Shown: piece after piece, positions 21,183 through 37,918 of the stretch
How positions within the stretch are numbered: position 1 is the stretch's first letter
How the letters are laid out: the number at the start of each line of letters is the position of its first letter
Assembly: GCF_010671565.1 (NCBI RefSeq)
Contig: NZ_JAABOQ010000001.1
Coordinates: 558,001 to 622,000, forward strand
Reading direction: 5' to 3'
Source: Spongiivirga citrea
GTDB lineage: Bacteria; Bacteroidota; Bacteroidia; Flavobacteriales; Flavobacteriaceae
DNA: 64,000 bases
The notes under the pieces: generated by a model
What the model saw: the letters and a program-made list of their open reading frames with translations, nothing else
Databases searched by the model: none
Told to the model about the DNA's origin: nothing
Translations under genes and position numbers: made by a program

Positions 21183-21833
21183 TTAGTAATAAAATAGTTT
21201 AGTAAACTGGAAAATTGAAATGCAAACTAATAGAACGCCTATAACCCTATTAATCCTTGTTGTGATATTTTTCATTCTTACCTTTAACATATGACTAAAT
21301 TTTCCATAACCGTAAAGCGTAATTACTTTTCCTGAAAAAACACCAATAATAAATAGGATTAATAATGTATATCCAACATTTACGTCGAAGTAAATCATTC
21401 TATTATTTAAAAATGAAATTACTAAAATCCAATAAATCAATACTGTAGGATTAACCAATCCAAGTATGAATCCGAGCGTTTGCTTTGAAATTTGAAATCT
21501 TCTTTTTTTAATAATAATGCATTCTTCATTTTCATCTTTAACGCATTCTTTCCTTCCTAAAATAAGAATAATACCTACCAGTAATAATAACACCGCAATT
21601 CCATATTGTATCCAAATATTCATATCTACAAAATTTTCAATTTGCATGTTAAAATTGAGCGCAATTAACACGAGAATTAGTTCTGCGAGAGCAGCGGTAT
21701 AGACAATTTTTAATGCGCTTTGAATATTCTCTTTTATAGTTGTGTTTATAACAGCCACGTTAGTAGTGCCTAATGGTAAAGCACCAATGATTGCCGTTAT
21801 AAATCCTAAGAACAAATATGTTATTATAGTCAT
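21183..21833 (-). CDS. LysE-type transporter family protein
   Basis: This 216-aa membrane protein has about six spans. The N-terminus ITYLFLGFITAIIGALPLGTTNVAVIN has the P-x-G-x-x-N-x-x-V-x-x pattern of the LysE/RhtB exporter family. A second conserved piece is GFILGLVNPTVLIYWI near residue 122. Family members export amino acids or related small molecules through the inner membrane. It is the last gene on this strand after the Rieske cluster, separated from it by 125 bases, so membership in that operon is uncertain. Confidence 0.8.
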   Translation of the reverse strand: MTIITYLFLGFITAIIGALPLGTTNVAVINTTIKENIQSALKIVYTAALAELILVLIALNFNMQIENFVDMNIWIQYGIAVLLLLVGIILILGRKECVKDENEECIIIKKRRFQISKQTLGFILGLVNPTVLIYWILVISFLNNRMIYFDVNVGYTLLILFIIGVFSGKVITLYGYGKFSHMLKVRMKNITTRINRVIGVLLVCISIFQFTKLFYY

Positions 21834-21958: not shown

Positions 21959-22750
21959 TTAATATATGGATGATTTCTTGTCTAATTCTCGGATATCGGA
22001 TACCTGTATTTTTATAATGGACCAGTCTTCCATTTTTTCAACAATTCCTGTTATTTCAGATGGTTTTCCTATGTATTCAAGTATGTCTTTATTGATAGGT
22101 TTCCCATTTAAATCTGTGATTAAAAAATACTCCGAAATGTTATTTTTATCTGTGGTTGCTAACACAGGTGGAATACCACCCGAAACGCACCGAACAGCAC
22201 AACTTCTATGAATTTTTCCCTTACCTGGTTTCATGACACCGAAATAACATTTAGGATCGATGATCTCGCCGGTTAATGTCATTTTACTGATCACTTCCTT
22301 TTCAGGTAGTCGTTTTTTTGAAGAACTCTCCAAGATTACTTTTTCGTCATCCGTAATTTGAATGAGTGTCTTCCCATTATAATAAATGAGATTACCTTCA
22401 ATACTTACGTTTTTCCCGTTTAAATCTTTAACTTCCTTTTGAAGTTTTTCCAAATAAGGGTTGGCGCTTGATTTGCCAAAACCTAAAAGCAAAATATTTT
22501 TAAAAGTATTCTCAGCTACCTCAACCCTAAGCATGGGATAAGGCTTTTCGTAATAGGTTCCAGTAATATTTGTAGCACTTGTAAGTTCGAACGTACTGTT
22601 TTTAAAAGGCTTCTGAAAAAAGCTAAATAACAACGCCCCAATTACAATTGTTGCCAACGCAATTATGGAAAATCGTTTTAGTGTAGTTTTTGTTTTAGGA
22701 CCTAAGCTTCTGTCTATATAAGACACATAAAATTCATCATTCTTTTTCAT
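21959..22750 (-). CDS. Membrane-anchored protein with conserved Cys motif, last gene of the Rieske cluster
   Basis: This 263-aa protein has a single N-terminal span (residues about 27-45, FSIIALATIVIGALLFSFF). The remainder, presumably periplasmic, contains two similar OB-like halves: NLNGKNVSIEGNLIYYNGKTLIQI-type strands first, and GKPSEITGIVEKMEDWSIIKI later. A striking block reads DPKCYFGVMKPG-x-GKIHRSCAVRCVSGGIPPVL, with three cysteines and a histidine in the second half. Those residues could ligate a metal or form a disulfide. I do not know a named function. Three bases separate it from the ferric-reductase-Rieske gene, so they are surely co-transcribed. Confidence 0.75.
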   Translation of the reverse strand: MKKNDEFYVSYIDRSLGPKTKTTLKRFSIIALATIVIGALLFSFFQKPFKNSTFELTSATNITGTYYEKPYPMLRVEVAENTFKNILLLGFGKSSANPYLEKLQKEVKDLNGKNVSIEGNLIYYNGKTLIQITDDEKVILESSSKKRLPEKEVISKMTLTGEIIDPKCYFGVMKPGKGKIHRSCAVRCVSGGIPPVLATTDKNNISEYFLITDLNGKPINKDILEYIGKPSEITGIVEKMEDWSIIKIQVSDIRELDKKSSIY

Positions 22751-22753
22751 TAC

Positions 22754-23782
22754 TTAAATTTTACAAGGGTTAACTTCTGTTCCTTCCTCAAAAGCTTTCG
22801 GGTTAATGTAAACGGTTTTCCCATCTAGTTTTAATTCATAAGTCGCTACTTTTTCTGTGAATGGAGGCGGCGATTGTCCGTTAGCTGGTAAATATTGATA
22901 TCCATGCCAAGGGCATGTAATACAGCCATCTATAATTTTTCCCTCGCCTAATGGGCCACCTTGATGCTTGCAAACATTATGAATTGCGGATAATTTTCCA
23001 TCGTATTTAAAAATAGCGATACGCTCTTTTTCAACGGTAAATATTTTAGCTCGATCTTCTTCAATTTCTGAAATATCACAAACTTTTAGCCAGCCCTCTT
23101 TTTCTTCAGTTTTGGCAGTATCGATATGACCTTCTTTAAATGCTGTTATTAAATGTAAACTAGATACCAGTATAAATCCGAAAACCAAAATACCAATGGT
23201 GAAGGGAGATGTTTCTTGTTGAAAGGCACCAAGAAAAACATGAGCGATAATTAAGGCATATGCAGCATAAACCATCATATGAAGACGCTTCCAGGTTTTT
23301 GCAGATAAGTTTCCGAGGAAAAAATCATGACTTGTAGATGCCATTACAAACAAGATAAGTAAAGCTAAAAACCCTAAAACTTGAAAAGGAAAATCAGTAA
23401 GAGAACCATAATCCATGTTTGAAATAAAAATCGAATAGATGGGATTTACATCACCTAAGGCATGAAATTGAAACATGGAAAAACCACCATGAATAAAGGC
23501 TGCAATAAACATACTAACACCTAAATGCCTTCGATTGTAAAGTATAGGCAAGAAAGCACTATTTAACCTAGCTAAGGGTCCGATAACTAAAATGATGTGC
23601 AACATAATGATAGCTAAAGACCCAAATGCCCTAATCACTAATGTCTCAATACTTGTTTCAGAATTAAAAACAAGTGTTACGACGGCAAACAAAATGATAT
23701 AAAGCAGCATGCCAAGCACAATAAGCTTATCATATGTTTTCTTGTGGTTATTCCACAATACTAATTGATAGTTTAATCCCAT
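22754..23782 (-). CDS. Ferric-reductase-like transmembrane protein with C-terminal Rieske domain
   Basis: This 342-aa protein has two parts. Residues about 20-210 hold roughly six spans with conserved histidines (LHIILVIGPLARLN, AAFIHGGFSMFQFH, KRLHMMVYAAYALIIAHVFLG), matching the two-heme ferric-reductase/YedZ-like fold. Residues about 235-325 form a Rieske domain: CKHQGGPLGEG (C-x-H) and CPWHGYQY (C-x2-H). Heme and [2Fe-2S] in one chain suggest electron transfer across or along the inner membrane. It abuts the 139-aa gene with no gap. This is the membrane member of three Rieske proteins in the operon. Confidence 0.85.
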   Translation of the reverse strand: MGLNYQLVLWNNHKKTYDKLIVLGMLLYIILFAVVTLVFNSETSIETLVIRAFGSLAIIMLHIILVIGPLARLNSAFLPILYNRRHLGVSMFIAAFIHGGFSMFQFHALGDVNPIYSIFISNMDYGSLTDFPFQVLGFLALLILFVMASTSHDFFLGNLSAKTWKRLHMMVYAAYALIIAHVFLGAFQQETSPFTIGILVFGFILVSSLHLITAFKEGHIDTAKTEEKEGWLKVCDISEIEEDRAKIFTVEKERIAIFKYDGKLSAIHNVCKHQGGPLGEGKIIDGCITCPWHGYQYLPANGQSPPPFTEKVATYELKLDGKTVYINPKAFEEGTEVNPCKI

Positions 23783-24202
23783 TTATAGCGGTAATACGGT
23801 TAATATATTTATATCTTCTTTTCCTAAGGGGTCTTTTAGTATAATAGCTTCAATAACTTCATCAACTTCGAATTTGTAAATCCCAACAGATGACAGTTGG
23901 CCAATAACTTTAGCTCCGTCTTGGGCCTGCAAGCTTTCTATTACAAGAGACGCCTGTTTAATAGGTTTTTTTAATATGACCTCTAAAGAATACAAGCTAT
24001 CTTTTTTTATAAGTGATGCTTTGAGTATTTTGTTTTCCGAAGTTTTAACGATAGTACCTTTGGTGGCACTAAACTTCGGTTTTAAATCTTCTTTTAGCGA
24101 AAAAACATCCAAATCCTTTACGGCAAAAATCATCAAGATCGGAATAGTCATTACTAATAGTAACCAAACATATTTATGCGCTTTTCTTTGTCCAGAAGTC
24201 AT
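23783..24202 (-). CDS. Small single-span membrane protein of the Rieske cluster
   Basis: This 139-aa protein starts MTSGQRKAHKYVWLLLVMTIPILMIFAV, one N-terminal span. About 100 periplasmic residues of predicted beta structure follow (LKASLIKKDSLYSLEVILKKPI, VIGQLSSVGIYKFEVDEV). There are no cysteines and no known motif. The topology recalls small FixH-like or cytochrome-assembly accessory proteins, but I cannot support a family. It lies one base after the 69-aa gene and directly before the ferric-reductase gene. Confidence 0.65.
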   Translation of the reverse strand: MTSGQRKAHKYVWLLLVMTIPILMIFAVKDLDVFSLKEDLKPKFSATKGTIVKTSENKILKASLIKKDSLYSLEVILKKPIKQASLVIESLQAQDGAKVIGQLSSVGIYKFEVDEVIEAIILKDPLGKEDINILTVLPL

Positions 24203-24203
24203 A

Positions 24204-24413
24204 TTAAGCAGTTTTAGAATTGAATAATTTGCCTATAAGAAAAGGCCATGTCGCTGCGACACCTGGGAATAATAAAAAGCGAACTTTCTTTTTTGTATCA
24301 GCCATTAGCGGATCAATTTTGGGTGCTTTAATTAAAAAGAAAACACCAAAGAGAATTCCAATTAAAGTATACACTCCCAAAATCCCTAGAAATATTTTGA
24401 TTACGATTTCCAT
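24204..24413 (-). CDS. Very small membrane protein of the Rieske cluster
   Basis: About 69 aa from ATG 24411-24413 (MEIVIKIFLGILGVYTLIG); a longer frame to 24431 would overlap the upstream gene. It has two hydrophobic segments: residues 3-27, and a shorter one near 49-60 (FLLFPGVAATWPFLIG). A basic middle lies between them (DTKKKVR). No family is recognised. Its position two bases after the ThDP enzyme gene makes co-expression certain; it may anchor or assemble one of the redox partners. Confidence 0.65.
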   Translation of the reverse strand: MEIVIKIFLGILGVYTLIGILFGVFFLIKAPKIDPLMADTKKKVRFLLFPGVAATWPFLIGKLFNSKTA

Positions 24414-24414
24414 A

Positions 24415-26367
24415 TTAAATGAGGTTAACATCGGTTATTACTTCTAAAACACCAGCTTTTGGTTGTCTAAACAATTCTTTCATTGCTGTTTCCAAATCTT
24501 CTTGTTTTTCGACCCGCTTTCCCCACGCACCGCATGATCGTGCAAAGTCTGCAAAATTTGGATTCGATAAAGACGTTTTCCAAACATCAAATTCGCCTGC
24601 ACGTTGTTCTTTAGAAATCTTACCCAACTCATCGTTGTTCAATACAATCAATTTGATAGGCATATTGTATTTAACAAGTGTTGTTATTTCTGCCAAATAT
24701 TGACATAAACCGCCATCTCCTGCAACTGCAATTACAGGTCTTGAATCTCCTACAGCAGCCCAGGCCCCAATAGCTGCAGGTAAGGCAAACCCGATAGATC
24801 CTAAATAGCCGGACATTAAAAAGTCTTGGTTTTTTGGTTCGAAATAACGACCAAAAGAATAGGCGTTATTCCCCACATCAACACACATTACTGCATCTTC
24901 TGGAGTGTGTTTATTCATAGTTTCAAAAACAGCTATAGAGCTTATACCTTTATCAGACCTTTCTAATAAGCGCTTTGCTTTCTCGGCTTTCCAGATTTTC
25001 CAGCGAGCTGCTATTTCGGGGCCTTGATCTTCAGTATTAATATGTCCTTTTAATTCCGAATTGAAAATAGCTAAGGTCCTAGAGATTTCTCCCCATACTG
25101 CGACTTCAACTTTATGAAATTTACTTAAGGCTAAAGGATCAAAATCTATCTGAATAATCGGTTTCTTGGGTGTGATTCCGGTATGATTAGAAAAAGAAGC
25201 GCCAAAAACAATTAATAGGTCTGCTTCATTCATAAACCAGGAAGCTATCGGTGTACCACTTCTCCCTAAAACTCCACCCCCAAGTGTGTGGCCGTCTGCG
25301 ATTAAACCTTTCCCTTTAAAAGTAGTTACAACCGCAGCGTTTAAGCTTTCGGCAAATTCAACTACCGCTTTTTTATGTTCTCTTGCTCCATGCCCCATAA
25401 CTATAACGGGGCGTTTTGATTTTTTAATTAATGATACCGCATCATTTACCGCTGCAATAGGTGGCGCAATTTCCAAAGAGGTTATCCTTTTTTCTGGAGT
25501 CTTCACTTTAGCACCAGTTTTGGCGTATTGCTCCTGTACTTCATCTGGAAATGTTAAGTGGGAAACATCGCGTTTTAAAATTGCGTGCTTTATCGCTAAA
25601 GACATTAATTCAGCATGTTGACTATCACTTTGAACACGCTGATTAAATTCGGCCACTGTATTGAAACCTTGCACCAAATCGACTTCTTGAAAATTGCCTG
25701 TACCGACCACTTGTGTTTTCACCTGACCTGTTAATGCCAGAATGGGTGCTCGATCTACTTTAGCATCCCAAAGTCCAGTATACATATTCGTAGCTCCAGG
25801 ACCAGCAATTGAAAAACAGGCTGCAGGTTTGCCAGTCAATTTCCCATAGGCCGAAGCAGCAAAAGAGGCTGCGCCTTCATGACGAATACCATAAAAATTA
25901 AGATTTCCCTTATTCTCTTGGCGTCTCATGGCATCTGCAAACCCAAGATTAGAGTGACCAACCATTCCGAAGACTTTCGTAACTCCCCAATTAACCATTG
26001 TTTCTACCATAATATCTGAAACAGTTGGTTGATGTGCAGGTTCCTCTTCTAAGCCTACATAAATAGCATCTCCCTCTTCTTTTATAGGGAACGTGTCAAC
26101 CCCATCATCAAAACCTCCAGGTGAATTGCCTGTACATGGATGGTAATCCCAACCGTGCCAAGGACAGCGTAACATTCCATTCTCTATGGAACCTTCCCCC
26201 AATGGTCCACCTTGATGCGGACAGCGATTATCTAAAGCCGAAAATTTCCCCTCATAATGTGTTAAACAAATACCTTTATGATCCGCAGTTACTGTTTTTA
26301 CACGACCTTCAGGAAGGTCTTTTTTATTTAGTAATACTTTATGCCAAATTATTTTTTTATCCTGCAT
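24415..26367 (-). CDS. Rieske - ThDP-dependent enzyme fusion (pyruvate-oxidase/acetolactate-synthase type)
   Basis: This is a 650-aa protein. Residues about 5-107 form a Rieske domain with Cys49-x-His51 (CPHQGGPLGEG) and Cys68-x2-His71 (CPWHGWDY). From about 113 it is a complete ThDP enzyme. The parts are the N-terminal PYR domain with catalytic Glu164 (RHEGAASFAASAYG), a central DHS-like domain (VIVMGHGAREHKKAV) and a PP domain. The PP domain carries the GDGGLCQYL...VLNND ThDP/Mg motif near 555-590. The closest type is pyruvate oxidase or another decarboxylating oxidoreductase. No export signal is seen. The fused [2Fe-2S] centre could accept electrons from the ThDP intermediate, which would be unusual. 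It follows the outer-membrane protein gene by 25 bases. Confidence 0.88.
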   Translation of the reverse strand: MQDKKIIWHKVLLNKKDLPEGRVKTVTADHKGICLTHYEGKFSALDNRCPHQGGPLGEGSIENGMLRCPWHGWDYHPCTGNSPGGFDDGVDTFPIKEEGDAIYVGLEEEPAHQPTVSDIMVETMVNWGVTKVFGMVGHSNLGFADAMRRQENKGNLNFYGIRHEGAASFAASAYGKLTGKPAACFSIAGPGATNMYTGLWDAKVDRAPILALTGQVKTQVVGTGNFQEVDLVQGFNTVAEFNQRVQSDSQHAELMSLAIKHAILKRDVSHLTFPDEVQEQYAKTGAKVKTPEKRITSLEIAPPIAAVNDAVSLIKKSKRPVIVMGHGAREHKKAVVEFAESLNAAVVTTFKGKGLIADGHTLGGGVLGRSGTPIASWFMNEADLLIVFGASFSNHTGITPKKPIIQIDFDPLALSKFHKVEVAVWGEISRTLAIFNSELKGHINTEDQGPEIAARWKIWKAEKAKRLLERSDKGISSIAVFETMNKHTPEDAVMCVDVGNNAYSFGRYFEPKNQDFLMSGYLGSIGFALPAAIGAWAAVGDSRPVIAVAGDGGLCQYLAEITTLVKYNMPIKLIVLNNDELGKISKEQRAGEFDVWKTSLSNPNFADFARSCGAWGKRVEKQEDLETAMKELFRQPKAGVLEVITDVNLI

Positions 26368-26392
26368 AGTCTCTTGTTGTTTCTTTTTACTA

Positions 26393-26950
26393 TTAATGAG
26401 GTATTTCTTTTTCTTTTTTAGCCAGAGAAAAGTTAATTAGGGCTCCTACGGAAATAAAATGATCATCTAATTCACTGACCACATATTTGTATTCTCCAAA
26501 AAAGAGAATTCTCCCAGAGGCATAATGCATACCCGCTCCAATATTTAATCCAAACGCGTTCTCGGTATGTTTTTCCTCTGTTTCATTAAGATCTTTGGTT
26601 TCTGTCTCAGTAGTATAGTTGAATCCCCCTAAGGGATAAACCCCTAATCCTTTTTTTAAATCTAGAATGTAATGAAGATTGGCATTTGCCTCAAATAAAG
26701 ATAGTTCACCCTCTTCTGTATCTTTTTTAAAAAAAGAAACTTCCGGTCCAAAACAATAATGATGATCTGCCGCATAATACAACCTTGCATTTATTCCAGT
26801 TACTTCAAGCTTAGTGGAATATGTAGCCGCAAGTCCAGGCATAATTGTTGGCGGCTCTACTTGTGCCTTTACATGATAGCTTGTTAAAATCCAGAAAAAC
26901 GCACAAAAGGTTTTGAAATTAGAAGCAATCCAAACTATCTTTTTTTCCAT
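26393..26950 (-). CDS. Outer-membrane beta-barrel-like protein in the Rieske cluster
   Basis: This 185-aa protein has a signal-like start (FKTFCAFFWILTSYHVKAQ, cleavage after KAQ). Alternating amphipathic strands typical of a small 8-strand barrel follow: LNIGAGMHYASGRILFFGEYKYVVS and FISVGALINFSL near the end. A family (OmpW- or porin-like) cannot be fixed. It sits between the unknown 248-aa gene and the Rieske-ThDP gene, so an envelope step may belong to the same pathway. Confidence 0.65.
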   Translation of the reverse strand: MEKKIVWIASNFKTFCAFFWILTSYHVKAQVEPPTIMPGLAATYSTKLEVTGINARLYYAADHHYCFGPEVSFFKKDTEEGELSLFEANANLHYILDLKKGLGVYPLGGFNYTTETETKDLNETEEKHTENAFGLNIGAGMHYASGRILFFGEYKYVVSELDDHFISVGALINFSLAKKEKEIPH

Positions 26951-27029
26951 CAGTGTTGCTTTAAAAGTTTAGAAACCAGTTTCTCTATGTTTAACCCTTG
27001 GGTAATAATATCAACAACTATTTCAAACA

Positions 27030-27776
27030 TTATGCTATTGTATTTAGATAACTATTAATAGCCGTTTGAGAGAAATCAATTGCTGTCTCGTTATCAAGCC
27101 CATTTAAAGAAATAGCAAAACCTTGCCATTCATTAGTGTAATAATTACCGTGTTTTAAATCGTCAACGGACTTCAAGATTACAGGATCATGCCCATCATA
27201 ACCACTTATATAAAAATAGAAGTCGTTAATGAACGAATCAGGAATAGCCATACCAATGCCTATGGATAAGTTATCATTAACTATAACAAAAGCTCCTGTA
27301 TCAAAATGATGAGGCCATATTCTAATTGCACTATCGAATTCGTTAAATTTCAAAATACTGCTAATAACATCTTGCGCTAAATCTCTTTGTTTAATTAATG
27401 TATTTAGATCTTCCCTATTTGTTAATTCATAATTACTCTCATCTGTAACCTCATTATATGGAAGTTCATAGTGCAACTCATATTTATATGGTTTTTGTAT
27501 GTCTTTACTAATGCTTGTTTGAGAGATCCAATCTGTAATCTCCTTATGAGTTGATTGATTTAAACTAAATGATTCTTTGCTCCCATTTTGTTGCATCCAT
27601 TCTAAAGAGAAGTTCTGATAGTTTAGACCTAGTTTATCTCCATTTGAAAATTCATGTGTTTCAAGAATATGGTCGTTCCAACCTAAATTAGTATGGCTGT
27701 CGTCCTCTTTTTTAACAATAAAACTGATGGCTGCAGTTGCGAGATACTGCGCGGCTAAGTGCATTGTAGTTTTCAT
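27030..27776 (-). CDS. Conserved hypothetical protein of the Rieske cluster
   Basis: This 248-aa, apparently soluble and acidic protein has no signal peptide strong enough to call. It contains IRIWPHHFDTGAFVIV near residue 152, with His-His-x-Asp that could bind metal. Further on come IGIGMAIPDSFINDFYFYISGY and an HGNYYTNEWQGFAISL stretch. I recall PHHFD motifs in uncharacterised proteins but cannot name the family. It begins three bases after the Rieske-GOGAT gene and so is its direct operon partner. Confidence 0.65.
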   Translation of the reverse strand: MKTTMHLAAQYLATAAISFIVKKEDDSHTNLGWNDHILETHEFSNGDKLGLNYQNFSLEWMQQNGSKESFSLNQSTHKEITDWISQTSISKDIQKPYKYELHYELPYNEVTDESNYELTNREDLNTLIKQRDLAQDVISSILKFNEFDSAIRIWPHHFDTGAFVIVNDNLSIGIGMAIPDSFINDFYFYISGYDGHDPVILKSVDDLKHGNYYTNEWQGFAISLNGLDNETAIDFSQTAINSYLNTIA

Positions 27777-27779
27777 AGT

Positions 27780-29396
27780 TTAAAGTGTTACGCCAGCATA
27801 GCTAATTCCAGTTAATTTGTGCATATCTAGGTCAAAAGTTGATAGGTCATTGTGATTAAATTTTGCAACATCATCATAGCCGCAAGAGCGAGCCACTACC
27901 TTAATTAAATCGTTTGTCGCTTCAAAATAGTTGTGCAATTGTTTCGCAGATGAATCTATTATTAATCGGCTTCTTAAGGACTCCTTTTGAGTAGCAATGC
28001 CAACGGGACAATTATTACTACCACAGGCGCGCATACCCAAACATCCAATAGCCTGTAAAGCTGAGTTTGAAACGGCAATTGCATCTGCCCCCAGCATCAT
28101 GGCTTTTGCAAAATCTTCAGCTACTCTAAGACCACCAGTAATTACTAAACTAACATTGGTGGCCCCTACACTATCCATATATTTTCTGGCTCTTGCCAAT
28201 GCTGGAATAGTAGGTACATTTATATGGTCGCGCAAAATGGTTGGCGCAGAACCAGTGCCGCCTCCACGACCATCGAGAATGATATAATCAACACCACAAT
28301 CTAAAGCGAATTGAATATCCTTTTCGATATGGCTTGCAGCAATTTTAAACCCGATAGGAATTCCGTCAGTACGTTCACGAACTTTAGCACTAAAATCTTT
28401 AAAATCCTTTACAGAATGAAAATTAGGGTTTGCTGCTGGAGAAATGGCTGTTTCTCCTTCTTTTAGCCCTCTTACTTCGGCAATTTCTTTACTTACTTTA
28501 TTTCCTGGTAAGTGACCCCCAGTTCCTGTTTTTGCACCTTGACCACCTTTAAAGTGAAAGGCTTGTACATTATCTAATTTATCCCATGAAAACCCGAATT
28601 GGGCTGATGCTAATTCATAAAAATATTTTGAATTATTAGATTGTTCTTCTGGCAACATACCACCTTCACCTGAGCAGATTCCTGTTCCAGCCATTTCCGC
28701 ACCTTTACTTAATGCTATTTTTGCCTCACGGGATAAAGCGCCAAAACTCATATCACTTACAAAAAGAGGAATATCTAATTCCAAAGGCTTTTTTGCATTT
28801 GGACCAATAACGACTTTGGTAGCCACATCTTCATGGTCTAATAAAGGCCTTGTTGCTAATTGGGCTGGAAGAAATTGAATGTCATTCCACTTTGGTAATA
28901 TATTTCTATCAACTCCCATGGAAGCTGAAAAACCATGATGACCAATATTCTTTAATCCATTTTGAGCGAGCTCTTTGATATATGATGTATAAGGTTCCGT
29001 ATCTTCTGGATGCGTATCTGCATATGCTCCTAAGTATTCATCACGGTTAAAAGGCTGTGGGTGATCAACCTCAAAGGCTACAATCTCATTTTCATCGACT
29101 AAAAGCGAATCGCCCTCTATATATTCTTGAAATTTATGAAGTACCTCTTTATTATTATATTCTGAAACTCCAGTATCAACTCGGTAATCCCAACCGTGAA
29201 CACCACAAATAAGATTGTGCCCATCAACATAGCCGTCAGACATTAATGCACCACGATGTAAACATCTACCATAAAGAACCGAAATTCCCATTTCATGCTT
29301 TGTTATAACGAGATCTGTATTTTTAACTAAGGCGTGTGAAGGTTGGTTTTGTTTTAATTCAGAAATTTTAGCAATTTTAATTTTGTTGACTTTCAT
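27780..29396 (-). CDS. Rieske - glutamate-synthase-like FMN protein fusion
   Basis: This is a 538-aa protein. Residues about 1-105 are a Rieske domain with Cys45-x-His47 (CLHRGALMSDG) and Cys64-x2-His67 (CGVHGWDY). From about 150 it is the GltB2/GltS FMN-binding barrel: SDMSFGALSREAKIAL, GEGGMLPEEQ, QGAKTGTGGHLPG and LDGRGGGTGSAP. The [3Fe-4S] cysteines are in CLGMRACGSNNCPVG (C-x5-C-x4-C). There is no glutaminase domain, so it resembles the stand-alone 'glutamate synthase-related' enzymes whose reactions vary. The Rieske cluster would supply or remove electrons from the FMN/[3Fe-4S] pair. It is the first gene of the minus-strand run, with 332 gene-free bases upstream. Confidence 0.88.
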   Translation of the reverse strand: MKVNKIKIAKISELKQNQPSHALVKNTDLVITKHEMGISVLYGRCLHRGALMSDGYVDGHNLICGVHGWDYRVDTGVSEYNNKEVLHKFQEYIEGDSLLVDENEIVAFEVDHPQPFNRDEYLGAYADTHPEDTEPYTSYIKELAQNGLKNIGHHGFSASMGVDRNILPKWNDIQFLPAQLATRPLLDHEDVATKVVIGPNAKKPLELDIPLFVSDMSFGALSREAKIALSKGAEMAGTGICSGEGGMLPEEQSNNSKYFYELASAQFGFSWDKLDNVQAFHFKGGQGAKTGTGGHLPGNKVSKEIAEVRGLKEGETAISPAANPNFHSVKDFKDFSAKVRERTDGIPIGFKIAASHIEKDIQFALDCGVDYIILDGRGGGTGSAPTILRDHINVPTIPALARARKYMDSVGATNVSLVITGGLRVAEDFAKAMMLGADAIAVSNSALQAIGCLGMRACGSNNCPVGIATQKESLRSRLIIDSSAKQLHNYFEATNDLIKVVARSCGYDDVAKFNHNDLSTFDLDMHKLTGISYAGVTL

Positions 29397-30429: not shown

Positions 30430-31029
30430 TTATCTTGACGGCTCAACTTCTTTCCATTCCACTTTCAACGTCTCTGGATTGTATGTTCCATGAACAATGA
30501 GGTTTGAACGTCTCGAGTGTTTCCATTCTACTTTTTCCGTGTTCGGATTGTACACTCCATAAACGGTATAATGCGCATGATTGGGCTCATTCCATTGTAC
30601 TTTTTTGAGATGAGGATTATATACCCCATGCACCTTACGATGACCATGCCTTGAATGTTTCCATTCTACCTTTTTCTCGCTTGGATTATAAACTCCGAAA
30701 ACGGTATAATATTCATGCTTCGAATTTTCCCATTCTACTTCTTTCAAATCTGGGTTATATACGCCGTGAATAGTATAATTTTCATGCCTAGCTTTTTGCT
30801 CTTCTACTTTATTCGTATTTGGATTATACACCGAAAAAGTCATGGTAAATGTAGGCTCCTCTTCTTCTTCTTCAAATAGATAACTTAGTGCTATATTTTG
30901 AGGACATGAATAATCAACAAACAAAATATCCTCACCCAATAAATGATTTATCAAAACGGGATTTTGAGAGCGTAATTGGTTTACTGAAAAAAGTATAAAA
31001 AAAAGGAAGATGGAATGTCTGGTATTCAT
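30430..31029 (-). CDS. Secreted tandem-repeat protein (23-residue YNP repeats)
   Basis: This 199-aa protein has a signal peptide (RHSIFLFFILFSVNQLRSQ). A short region ending in a run of six Glu follows. From residue 67 there are six repeats of exactly 23 residues with consensus VYNPxxxKVEWKxSRHxxYTVHG; the last is truncated at 18. Conserved are Tyr-Asn-Pro, Val-Glu-Trp and a His. The pattern suggests a beta-hairpin repeat stack or filament outside the cell. I know no named family for it. The coding repeats are 69 bases long with many silent differences, so the array is old and under selection. Confidence 0.75.
   Translation of the reverse strand: MNTRHSIFLFFILFSVNQLRSQNPVLINHLLGEDILFVDYSCPQNIALSYLFEEEEEEPTFTMTFSVYNPNTNKVEEQKARHENYTIHGVYNPDLKEVEWENSKHEYYTVFGVYNPSEKKVEWKHSRHGHRKVHGVYNPHLKKVQWNEPNHAHYTVYGVYNPNTEKVEWKHSRRSNLIVHGTYNPETLKVEWKEVEPSR
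30433..30831 (-). repeat. 69-bp coding tandem repeat array (about six units)
   Basis: The repeats encode the YNP units of the preceding feature. Unit length is constant at 69 bases. On the plus strand each unit carries a GGATT(A/G)TA word (complement of the YNP codons) and a TTCCATTCTACTT word (complement of KVEWK). Confidence 0.85.
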
Positions 31030-36379: not shown

Positions 36380-37918
36380 CTACTCTTCTTGCTGCTGTTC
36401 TTGTTCTGGCTGCTTAAACAAAGCAACATAAGCTTTGCCAATATGGTTAATAATATCGCCAGCAATCATCGCTTGGTAGCCTCGACCTTCTAATGCTAAA
36501 TCTCCTGCTGTGCCATGTAAATACACTCCAAATACGGTAGCTTGTAGTGGGTCATAGCCTTGTGAGATTAATCCCGTGATGATTCCCGTTAATACATCTC
36601 CACTTCCGGCAGTTGCCATACCAGGATTTCCTGTAACATTAATGTATATTTTTTCGGGATGTACCGTAATTGTATTGGCGCCTTTAATGGTAACAATCAA
36701 CTTATATTTTGCAGCAAATGCTTTTGTACGTTCTAATTTATCAAAATCGTCTTCCCATTTTCCTACCAGTCGTTCTAGCTCTCCCGGGTGAGGTGTTAAG
36801 ACTGTATTCTCAGGAAGCAATTCTAATAAGGTTTTATCAGCTGCCATAATATTCAATGCGTCAGCATCAATGACTAGTGGTTTTCTATTATCTTTCAAAA
36901 ATACCTCAAGCGCAATTTTCGCTTTTTTCCCAGTCCCCATTCCCATTCCGAGTCCGATTACGGTTGGGTCTATTTTGAACTTTATTTGGGTAATCTCTTC
37001 TTCAGAACTATCGGTCAATACCATTGCTTCAGGTAATGCTGTTTGCATACTATGATAACCACAACCTGGCACATAGGCGGTTACTAGTCCAGCTCCTGCG
37101 GTTAAAGCTGCTCGTGATGCTAGTTGTACAGCACCTATTTTACCGTGACTTCCACCAATGATCAGGCTATGACCGTAAGTGCCTTTATGATCGAATTTTT
37201 CTCTAGGCTGGTATATGGGCAATACTTCATGTTTCCCGATAAGCTCCGCTGCTGTTTGTGTTTCGACTAGATACTGTCGGTCTAATCCGATGTCGAGTAT
37301 TTCCCACTGCTCGGTATAATGTCCGGTCTGCGGTAAAAAGAATATAAGTTTTGGTGTTTGAAAGGATAAGGTATAACCAGCTCTAATTACCGCTTCAGGC
37401 TTCTCAGGAAGTTTATCCGAAAAAAGTCCAGAAGGTATATCTACAGAAACAATGTAGGCCCCTGCATTATTCAAACCTTGCATAATCGTAATTACCCAAT
37501 CATCTGGGCATCGGTTAATGCCAATTCCGAAAATAGCATCAACAATAATATCGTCTTTCCCTATTTCAGGCAATTCATCTCCTTTTTTTATTAAAGTAGG
37601 CCAGGATTTGGTCTCTGCTTTAATACGATCATAGTTCACCAAAAAATTCTTAGACCGTTTATCACTACAATTCACCACATAGGTATCGACATTATAACCG
37701 TGTTGATATAAATGTCTAGCAAGCACCAAACCGTCGCCTCCATTATTCCCTATTCCGCAAAACACATGAATCTTTACTTGTGCGCCTTGCATACGTTGGT
37801 GCATCCAATTAAATACCTGTGTTGCGGCACGTTCCATTAATTCAATCGAAGAAATGCCTTGACGCTCCGTGGTTATTTTATCAGCTTCGTAAATTTGAGC
37901 TGCTGAAAATATCTTCAT
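36380..37918 (-). CDS. nnr: Bifunctional NAD(P)H-hydrate epimerase / dehydratase
   Basis: This 512-aa cytoplasmic enzyme has the YjeF-N epimerase domain at residues about 1-215 (MKIFSAAQIYEADKIT, FCGIGNNGGDGLVLAR, DAIFGIGINR, SVDIPSGL). The YjeF-C ADP-dependent dehydratase domain covers about 225-505: GHSLIIGGSHGKIGA, GLGMGMG, VIDADALN, LTPHPGEL and GNPGMATAGSGDVLTG. Together they repair hydrated NADH/NADPH. The length is standard. A Gln/Glu-rich tail (PEQEQQQEE) is an oddity without known meaning. Confidence 0.95.
   Translation of the reverse strand: MKIFSAAQIYEADKITTERQGISSIELMERAATQVFNWMHQRMQGAQVKIHVFCGIGNNGGDGLVLARHLYQHGYNVDTYVVNCSDKRSKNFLVNYDRIKAETKSWPTLIKKGDELPEIGKDDIIVDAIFGIGINRCPDDWVITIMQGLNNAGAYIVSVDIPSGLFSDKLPEKPEAVIRAGYTLSFQTPKLIFFLPQTGHYTEQWEILDIGLDRQYLVETQTAAELIGKHEVLPIYQPREKFDHKGTYGHSLIIGGSHGKIGAVQLASRAALTAGAGLVTAYVPGCGYHSMQTALPEAMVLTDSSEEEITQIKFKIDPTVIGLGMGMGTGKKAKIALEVFLKDNRKPLVIDADALNIMAADKTLLELLPENTVLTPHPGELERLVGKWEDDFDKLERTKAFAAKYKLIVTIKGANTITVHPEKIYINVTGNPGMATAGSGDVLTGIITGLISQGYDPLQATVFGVYLHGTAGDLALEGRGYQAMIAGDIINHIGKAYVALFKQPEQEQQQEE

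Follow-up and report, generated by a model that had tools for sequence, protein, structure and literature searches.

The genome of Spongiivirga citrea, a member of the Flavobacteriaceae (Bacteroidota; NCBI RefSeq assembly GCF_010671565.1), contains a compact run of genes in which three proteins with different cores each carry a Rieske domain. The run lies on contig NZ_JAABOQ010000001.1, within a stretch of 64,000 nucleotides (positions 558,001 to 622,000 of the forward strand) that was analysed as a whole and is called the window here; gene coordinates are those of the window. Eight genes, every one an open frame, extend from 29396 to 21959 on the minus strand, with a transporter gene further downstream.

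27780..29396, minus strand: RskGlt, 538 amino acids (aa), N-terminal Rieske domain and a core like the flavin mononucleotide (FMN)/[3Fe-4S] core of glutamate synthase (GOGAT)
27030..27776, minus strand: PHHFD, 248 aa, divergent, DUF5996-like protein
26393..26950, minus strand: OMP, 185 aa, outer-membrane beta-barrel (Pfam OMP_b-brl, 34.1 bits)
24415..26367, minus strand: RskThDP, 650 aa, N-terminal Rieske domain and pyruvate-oxidase-like thiamine diphosphate (ThDP) enzyme
24204..24431, minus strand: p75, small membrane protein by hydropathy, likely true start at 24413
23783..24202, minus strand: p139, by hydropathy one transmembrane (TM) segment and a domain predicted to face outward
22754..23782, minus strand: RskHeme, 342 aa, YedZ/MsrQ-type ferric-reductase-like b-haem membrane domain and C-terminal Rieske domain
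21959..22750, minus strand: CysR, 263 aa, one TM helix and two domains like the oligonucleotide/oligosaccharide-binding (OB) fold, motif C-x12-H-x2-C-x3-C
21183..21833, minus strand: LysE-type transporter, after a gap of 125 bases, uncertain member (Pfam LysE, 34.1 bits)

From RskGlt to CysR the intergenic gaps are 3, 79, 25, -17, 1, 0 and 3 bases. A first, sequence-only reading of this DNA had put most gaps at 1-25 bases, which is a fair description, the 79 bases between PHHFD and OMP being the exception and the largest gap. The negative value probably reflects a p75 start that was set too early, because orthologues begin at the Met equivalent to 24413, which would give a gap of 1 base. OMP was placed outside the core set since relatives scoring at least 90 bits occur in just 11 of the 80 named loci described below. 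Promoter-like sites were no more frequent than expected from shuffles (37 against 36.2), a Bacteroidetes-type promoter pattern was found three times against a shuffle mean of 5.64, and eight terminator-like sites were found compared with 5.9 in shuffles.

The Rieske domains of RskGlt, RskThDP and RskHeme score 45.3, 58 and 63 bits, respectively, against the Pfam model (cut-off 20.3), and the full CxH-x16-CxxH motif is found at residues 45-67, 49-71 and 271-293. A genome-wide search gave five Rieske matches above the Pfam cut-off, of which three belong to this operon (66.2, 62 and 49.1 bits). By profile and motif, all three are intact predicted Rieske [2Fe-2S] domains, in which the cofactor is presumably bound. 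The three complete fusions in one minus-strand run reported by the sequence-only reading are hence confirmed by Pfam and motifs, and the partner cores it had named also hold, being recognised by Pfam as Glu_synthase, TPP_enzyme N/M/C and Ferric_reduct.

RskThDP matches the three TPP_enzyme domains at 113, 114 and 108 bits (N/M/C) and has the GDG..NN ThDP motif at residue 550. Its core aligns with Escherichia coli PoxB over nearly the whole length (215 bits), with the ThDP motif in common. RskThDP differs from PoxB in its N-terminal Rieske domain, in a Lys opposite the Phe that follows 'NNSVLG' in PoxB, and in extending about 15 residues past the end of the alignment compared with about 55 in PoxB. 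It also scores far under the cut-offs of the pyruvate oxidase equivalogs; the best NCBIfam match is PRK08611 pyruvate oxidase at 409 bits, below the cut-off of 742. Judged by these relatives, RskThDP most likely decarboxylates a 2-oxo acid, the identity of which can only be surmised. One RskThDP gene elsewhere (locus L141; genome G147, C2:445171-447120) has a single in-frame TGA and is possibly broken.

RskGlt matches Pfam Glu_synthase at 291 bits and shares this domain, together with the [3Fe-4S]-type C-x5-C-x4-C motif starting at residue 452 (C452/C458/C463), with the glutamate synthases GltB and ferredoxin GOGAT; K-x2-QGAK and the cluster cysteines are kept. Unlike GltB, it has no glutaminase or GXGXG domain by Pfam at E<=0.1, and the substrate-side 'SPPPHHD' stretch of GltB is replaced by 'SPAANPN' (SPAAFPD-like in relatives). 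The genome encodes a separate GltB-type frame of 1503 aa as well as a third paralogue. Given the altered SPPPHHD stretch and the GltB-type gene elsewhere, the substrate of RskGlt is probably not simply glutamine/2-oxoglutarate, and a role as the cell's glutamate synthase was judged unlikely on the same grounds.

The position occupied by the Rieske domain in RskGlt is filled differently in its homologues. Among the closest relatives lacking Rieske, L173 and L174 have rubredoxin at this N-terminal position (two stretches and one, respectively) and L150 has two CDGSH stretches there; CDGSH motifs were also found in L179 and L180. A tree of the catalytic core was built from 30 rows, 29 of them different, as the rubredoxin rows of L136 and L173 are the same protein; it leaves out outgroup L176, L181 (Pseudoalteromonas) and L182 (Monoglobus), the latter two being without a frame by the motif filter. 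The three rows with CDGSH lie among the 22 with Rieske, and the three with rubredoxin lie outside; constraining all Rieske rows to one clade costs 6.2 log units, which is not rejected by the approximately unbiased (AU) test (p-AU 0.105). Because homologues bear CDGSH or rubredoxin in place of Rieske, the iron domain on this core is, on the comparison of sequences, exchangeable. The N-terminal domain may serve as an electron port, since three types of iron site, each able to carry one electron, share one place. The combination of tandem CDGSH with a glutamate synthase FMN domain is termed type 5 CDGSH iron-sulfur domain (CISD) protein in PMC3174974, and such CDGSH-glutamate-synthase proteins also appear in PMC5859297. 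The type 5 core described there (PMC3174974) is homologous to that of RskGlt and likewise follows an N-terminal iron-sulfur domain; RskGlt lacks the tandem CDGSH and has Rieske instead.

RskHeme matches Pfam Ferric_reduct at 45.7 bits (cut-off 28). In an alignment of 11 rows R84, H98, H168 and H181 are invariant, as are the further histidines H62, H86, H107 and H152, and the protein has the YedZ-type pattern of the ferric reductase domain (FRD) superfamily, namely Arg..His in TM3 and His-x12-His in TM5. According to PMC3591440, in YedZ an Arg replaces the first TM3 His and the other three His are retained, and one of its figure legends names Rieske among the domains added to FRD proteins. The membrane b-haem fold and the Arg/three-His pattern are accordingly common to RskHeme and YedZ/MsrQ as portrayed there (PMC3591440). 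Unlike MsrPQ, RskHeme is accompanied by p75, p139 and CysR and not by the molybdoenzyme MsrP, and its Rieske domain takes the place of the flavin dehydrogenase domain of NOX/FRE proteins. Identity with MsrPQ was rejected, as RskHeme scores 41.4 bits against NCBIfam MsrQ (cut-off 130) and the operon holds no molybdoenzyme by Pfam. At least 582 encoded relatives were found in a scan of named genomes, so RskHeme is a common protein.

The Cys-His-Cys-Cys motif of CysR starts at residue 168, and C168, H181, C184 and C188 do not vary across 78 rows, nor in an alignment of 15 sequences that takes in five short homologues. This set of residues looks like a metal site. An AlphaFold model (predicted local distance difference test, pLDDT, 90.9) has one TM helix and two OB-like domains; compared with PDB folds it gave OB-fold matches, the best at Z 7.5 over 80 residues, below the caution level of Z 8, and a sequence search of the PDB gave no match at E<=1. 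In two genomes from a single genus, a gene for a short CysR-like protein is next to one for an Fe/Mn superoxide dismutase (L042:8257-8838; L044:7734-8318), and in L098 a cNMP-binding-domain protein lies between RskHeme and CysR.

Conservation of the neighbourhood was surveyed in 80 named loci, which are the best-scoring of the at least 582 RskHeme relatives and so favour near relatives. By title, 79 are from Bacteroidota (Flavobacteriaceae, Saprospiraceae, Cytophagales, Chitinophagales and others) and one, L111, is a metagenome-assembled genome of Acidobacteria. Genes were called by a simple non-overlapping open reading frame (ORF) rule that undercounts genes under longer antisense frames, and contig ends cut some of the loci. 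CysR was found in 79 of the 80 by script and in the last, L111, on recheck, where p75 had also been missed by the ORF rule and was recovered; p75 was counted in 70 loci and p139 in 66. RskThDP is present in 49 and RskGlt in 40 (both in 39, RskGlt only in 1, RskThDP only in 10, neither in 30), with RskGlt-like genes below threshold in L100 and L105. Amongst 60 genomes of the same family, its own included and one per genus, Rieske matches of the right lengths stand side by side in several; of nine such loci that were read, two have all three fusions (L006, L007), two have two (L008, L009), four have one (L010-L013) and one has none (L014). Gene-order conservation in Bacteroidota had been set beforehand as a test, and the neighbourhood is indeed kept elsewhere. 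Identity to homologues in this family and in another one of the phylum is 61-83% for RskThDP and 72-88% for RskGlt, which argues that the cluster is more than chance.

Co-occurrence was counted in 296 Bacteroidota genomes, with Fisher p values that ignore kinship. RskHeme was found in 10 genomes and RskThDP in 8; full-length RskGlt, Rieske included, was found in 37 (38 rows; 65 genomes at a loose limit). CysR matches occur in 16, and the 10 long ones are in exactly the 10 RskHeme genomes, the other 6 being short. RskGlt is present in 9 of 10 RskHeme genomes compared with 28 of 286 others (p 2.7e-8) and RskThDP in 5 of 10 compared with 3 of 286 (p 7.4e-7). Of the eight RskThDP genomes, seven have RskGlt (p 2.0e-6) and five RskHeme.

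The two kinds of component also occur apart. The membrane module lacks either enzyme nearby in the 30 loci mentioned, including Chitinophagales and many Cytophagales. In the plasmid collection searched, which holds no chromosomes and from which 25 rows were listed of 110 and of 144 records, RskHeme is in five records, all from Rhizobium; in L151, the only one of these loci that was read, p75, a short gene resembling p139, RskHeme and a CysR bearing Cys-His-Cys-Cys are present, with no enzyme nearby. Among the matches listed, RskThDP is on four haloarchaeal plasmids at 56-58% identity, and three of the four also carry RskGlt (55-57% identity), 1.4 to 17 kb from RskThDP. RskHeme is absent from the haloarchaeal records in this plasmid-only collection. 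Two Bacteroidota genomes have both enzymes and no RskHeme, G147 with the genes adjacent and the TGA noted above inside RskThDP, and G296 with the genes on different contigs. Taken together, these distributions suggest two transferable modules: a membrane module of p75-p139-RskHeme-CysR, and a soluble module of RskThDP and RskGlt that would be joined by the DUF5996-like PHHFD and often by a CPA1 Na+/H+ antiporter. Of the 50 loci that have at least one of the two enzymes, 34 also have this antiporter, compared with 2 of the 30 that have neither. On the Halorarius plasmid the gene after RskThDP encodes a Na+/H+ antiporter, and on a Mycobacteroides plasmid RskThDP has both a cation:proton antiporter and a flavodoxin of the FMN-reductase type no more than 5 kb away.

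The history of the Rieske domains was examined in a tree of 59 rows and 107 columns, which was re-run without two long rows, L169 and L014. Each fusion forms one group in the full tree (supports 99/98 for RskGlt, 93/81 for RskThDP and 89/79 for RskHeme), and in the reduced set the supports are 98/97, 76/89 and 93/76, respectively. The haloarchaeal rows group by fusion type in the 59-row tree, each with its own fusion. These groups and the position of the archaeal copies led us to reject recent triplication of one Rieske domain as a simple story. The sequence-only reading had asked whether the three domains are sisters. Each fusion stands as a group of its own, and none of the sister constraints tried on the reduced set is rejected (AU p values of 0.276 with all three together, 0.276 for ThDP with Heme and 0.495 for ThDP with Glt).

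How these parts might work together where the modules meet, as they do in this operon, can be outlined tentatively, in a model that we favour without holding it to be probable. RskThDP would carry out a pyruvate-oxidase-like decarboxylation of a 2-oxo acid with its Rieske domain as a one-electron plug, and RskGlt would be a GOGAT-like FMN/[3Fe-4S] oxidoreductase with a Rieske plug of its own. The Rieske domain of either enzyme might then pass electrons to that of RskHeme, a presumed cytosolic electron port, from which they would cross the membrane by haem b and reach CysR on the outer face, with its conserved metal-site-like Cys-His-Cys-Cys. The domains, motifs, neighbourhood, co-occurrence, independence of the modules and varied iron domains on the RskGlt core are read from sequence; the occupancy of the cofactors, the topology, the substrates, the direction of flow and the Rieske-to-Rieske step are our suppositions. 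A broader version, which seems rather unlikely, would make this a new kind of membrane electron-transfer system with Rieske as a standard swappable connector. In it unrelated cytosolic oxidases (a ThDP 2-oxo-acid oxidase and a GOGAT-like flavoenzyme) would plug into a transmembrane haem-b/Rieske reductase, and this would hand the electrons on to an OB protein that binds metal on the far side of the membrane, so that 2-oxo acids would be oxidised by a route bypassing NADH.

Several observations weigh against this route. The sequence-only reading had suggested one electron chain ending at the membrane reductase, and this is not borne out in that form: the three haloarchaeal plasmids with both enzymes have no RskHeme found, RskGlt is in 37 of the 296 genomes and RskHeme in 10, and the membrane module stands alone in 30 of 80 loci and in Rhizobium. 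As the enzymes occur without RskHeme and the membrane module without the enzymes, there is no support for one obligatory chain. Moreover, at least in the genomes and plasmids that keep RskGlt and RskThDP but not RskHeme, the two enzymes must rely on a different electron partner. RskGlt lies within 10 kb of RskHeme in just 6 of the 10 RskHeme genomes, the co-occurrence counts are inflated by kinship, and the trees do not establish the three operon domains as sisters. The role of CysR could be structural, and the potentials of Rieske centres are often too high to drive GOGAT-type reduction.

The main rival is nearly as likely as the plug model. It supposes co-regulated stress genes for two independent redox modules, each with its own partner, between which no electrons pass and which share an operon because one and the same stress, be it salt, pH, redox or starvation, calls for both. 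The existence of the modules apart favours it, and so do stress-like neighbours: the CPA1 antiporter; an FMN reductase in 7 of the 80 loci; an OsmC-hydrolase in L009; and, in flavobacteria and haloarchaea, NAD(P)H-hydrate epimerase, which was found near RskGlt in L138 (Pfam), L011 (by eye) and a Halorubrum plasmid and near RskThDP in Haloferax (annotation). Against it, three Rieske fusions in one tightly spaced cluster, and the presence of RskGlt in seven of eight RskThDP genomes, suggest more than shared timing. Electrons might also run the other way, from quinol or an outer donor through RskHeme to RskGlt, perhaps protecting or activating RskThDP. Classical GOGAT-type enzymes are reductive, and RskGlt retains the GOGAT core together with the cysteine motif for [3Fe-4S]; since the best relatives of RskThDP are pyruvate oxidases, which release electrons, and the potentials of Rieske and b-haem centres are ill suited to driving such a reduction, this direction appears improbable. 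Least probable is a mobile metabolic island linked by joint horizontal transfer with the shared Rieske a coincidence, for although haloarchaeal, Rhizobium and Mycobacteroides copies are on plasmids (the only collection searched there) and RskThDP is 56-58% identical between domains of life, the neighbourhood, spacing and completeness of the membrane module are kept across many Bacteroidota families and the operon frames hold no mobile-element gene by the open-frame list and Pfam scan.

If the plug route is true, it would be a way of oxidising 2-oxo acids in bacteria, with enzymes common to haloarchaea, and RskHeme and its partners would represent a new class of membrane oxidoreductase; type 5 CDGSH proteins would gain a family context for comparing electron ports. 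The FRD-Rieske and CDGSH-glutamate-synthase architectures are known already, as are the component folds. The sequence-only reading knew of no described pathway of this composition, and searches of the open-access literature (subscription papers lay outside it) likewise brought up no account of Rieske-ThDP or Rieske-GOGAT fusions or of the operon. Nor did they bring up a description of the p75-p139-RskHeme-CysR set, no search being aimed at the small proteins alone.

Of the remaining genes, PHHFD has no Pfam match at E<=0.1, PF19459 (DUF5996) included. Its profile finds proteins in L128 (37 bits) and L143 (40 bits), and these PHHFD-linked relatives score 189 and 152 bits, respectively, against PF19459, while that of L127 has no match. 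Its AlphaFold model (pLDDT 95.1) gave no Foldseek match in the PDB at E<=0.001, a further fold comparison reached a Z of 6.1 at most, and no new fold is claimed. The LysE-type protein of the window matches a probe from L052 at 36.8 bits, and relatives of that probe are in 20 of the 80 loci.

Elsewhere in the window, a secreted-looking protein of 199 aa, made up, as judged by eye, of repeated units some 20 residues long (VYNP..KVEW), is encoded at 30430-31029, and a protein that by eye resembles NAD(P)H-hydrate epimerase/dehydratase at 36383-37918, about 7 kb from the operon. A second cluster of YHS, LysE, DinB-like, TANGO2 and ATP-grasp-like genes lies near the membrane module (L052:11777-15756; also L036, L037, L039, L048 and L117); YHS was counted in 34 of the 80 named loci, DinB-like in 26 and ATP-grasp-like in 21. 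The DinB-like and ATP-grasp-like proteins of L052 are below the Pfam cut-offs and take their names from relatives. The pair recurs in L036, L037 and L039, which belong to three other families, and in L037 the ATP-grasp is fused to hydrolase-VTT; no relative of the cluster's ATP-grasp protein was found in the genome of the window, in a search run without a positive control. A Crp/Fnr-type regulator (by eye) lies upstream of RskGlt in L046, L047, L050 and L075, and relatives occur in 13 of the 80 loci, 11 of which have an enzyme. Subtilase relatives are in 9 of the 80 loci and, by order and length, directly precede the membrane module in L097, L103, L114, L115 and L125; those of L097 and L103 were confirmed by Pfam and have a glycogen-recognition domain.

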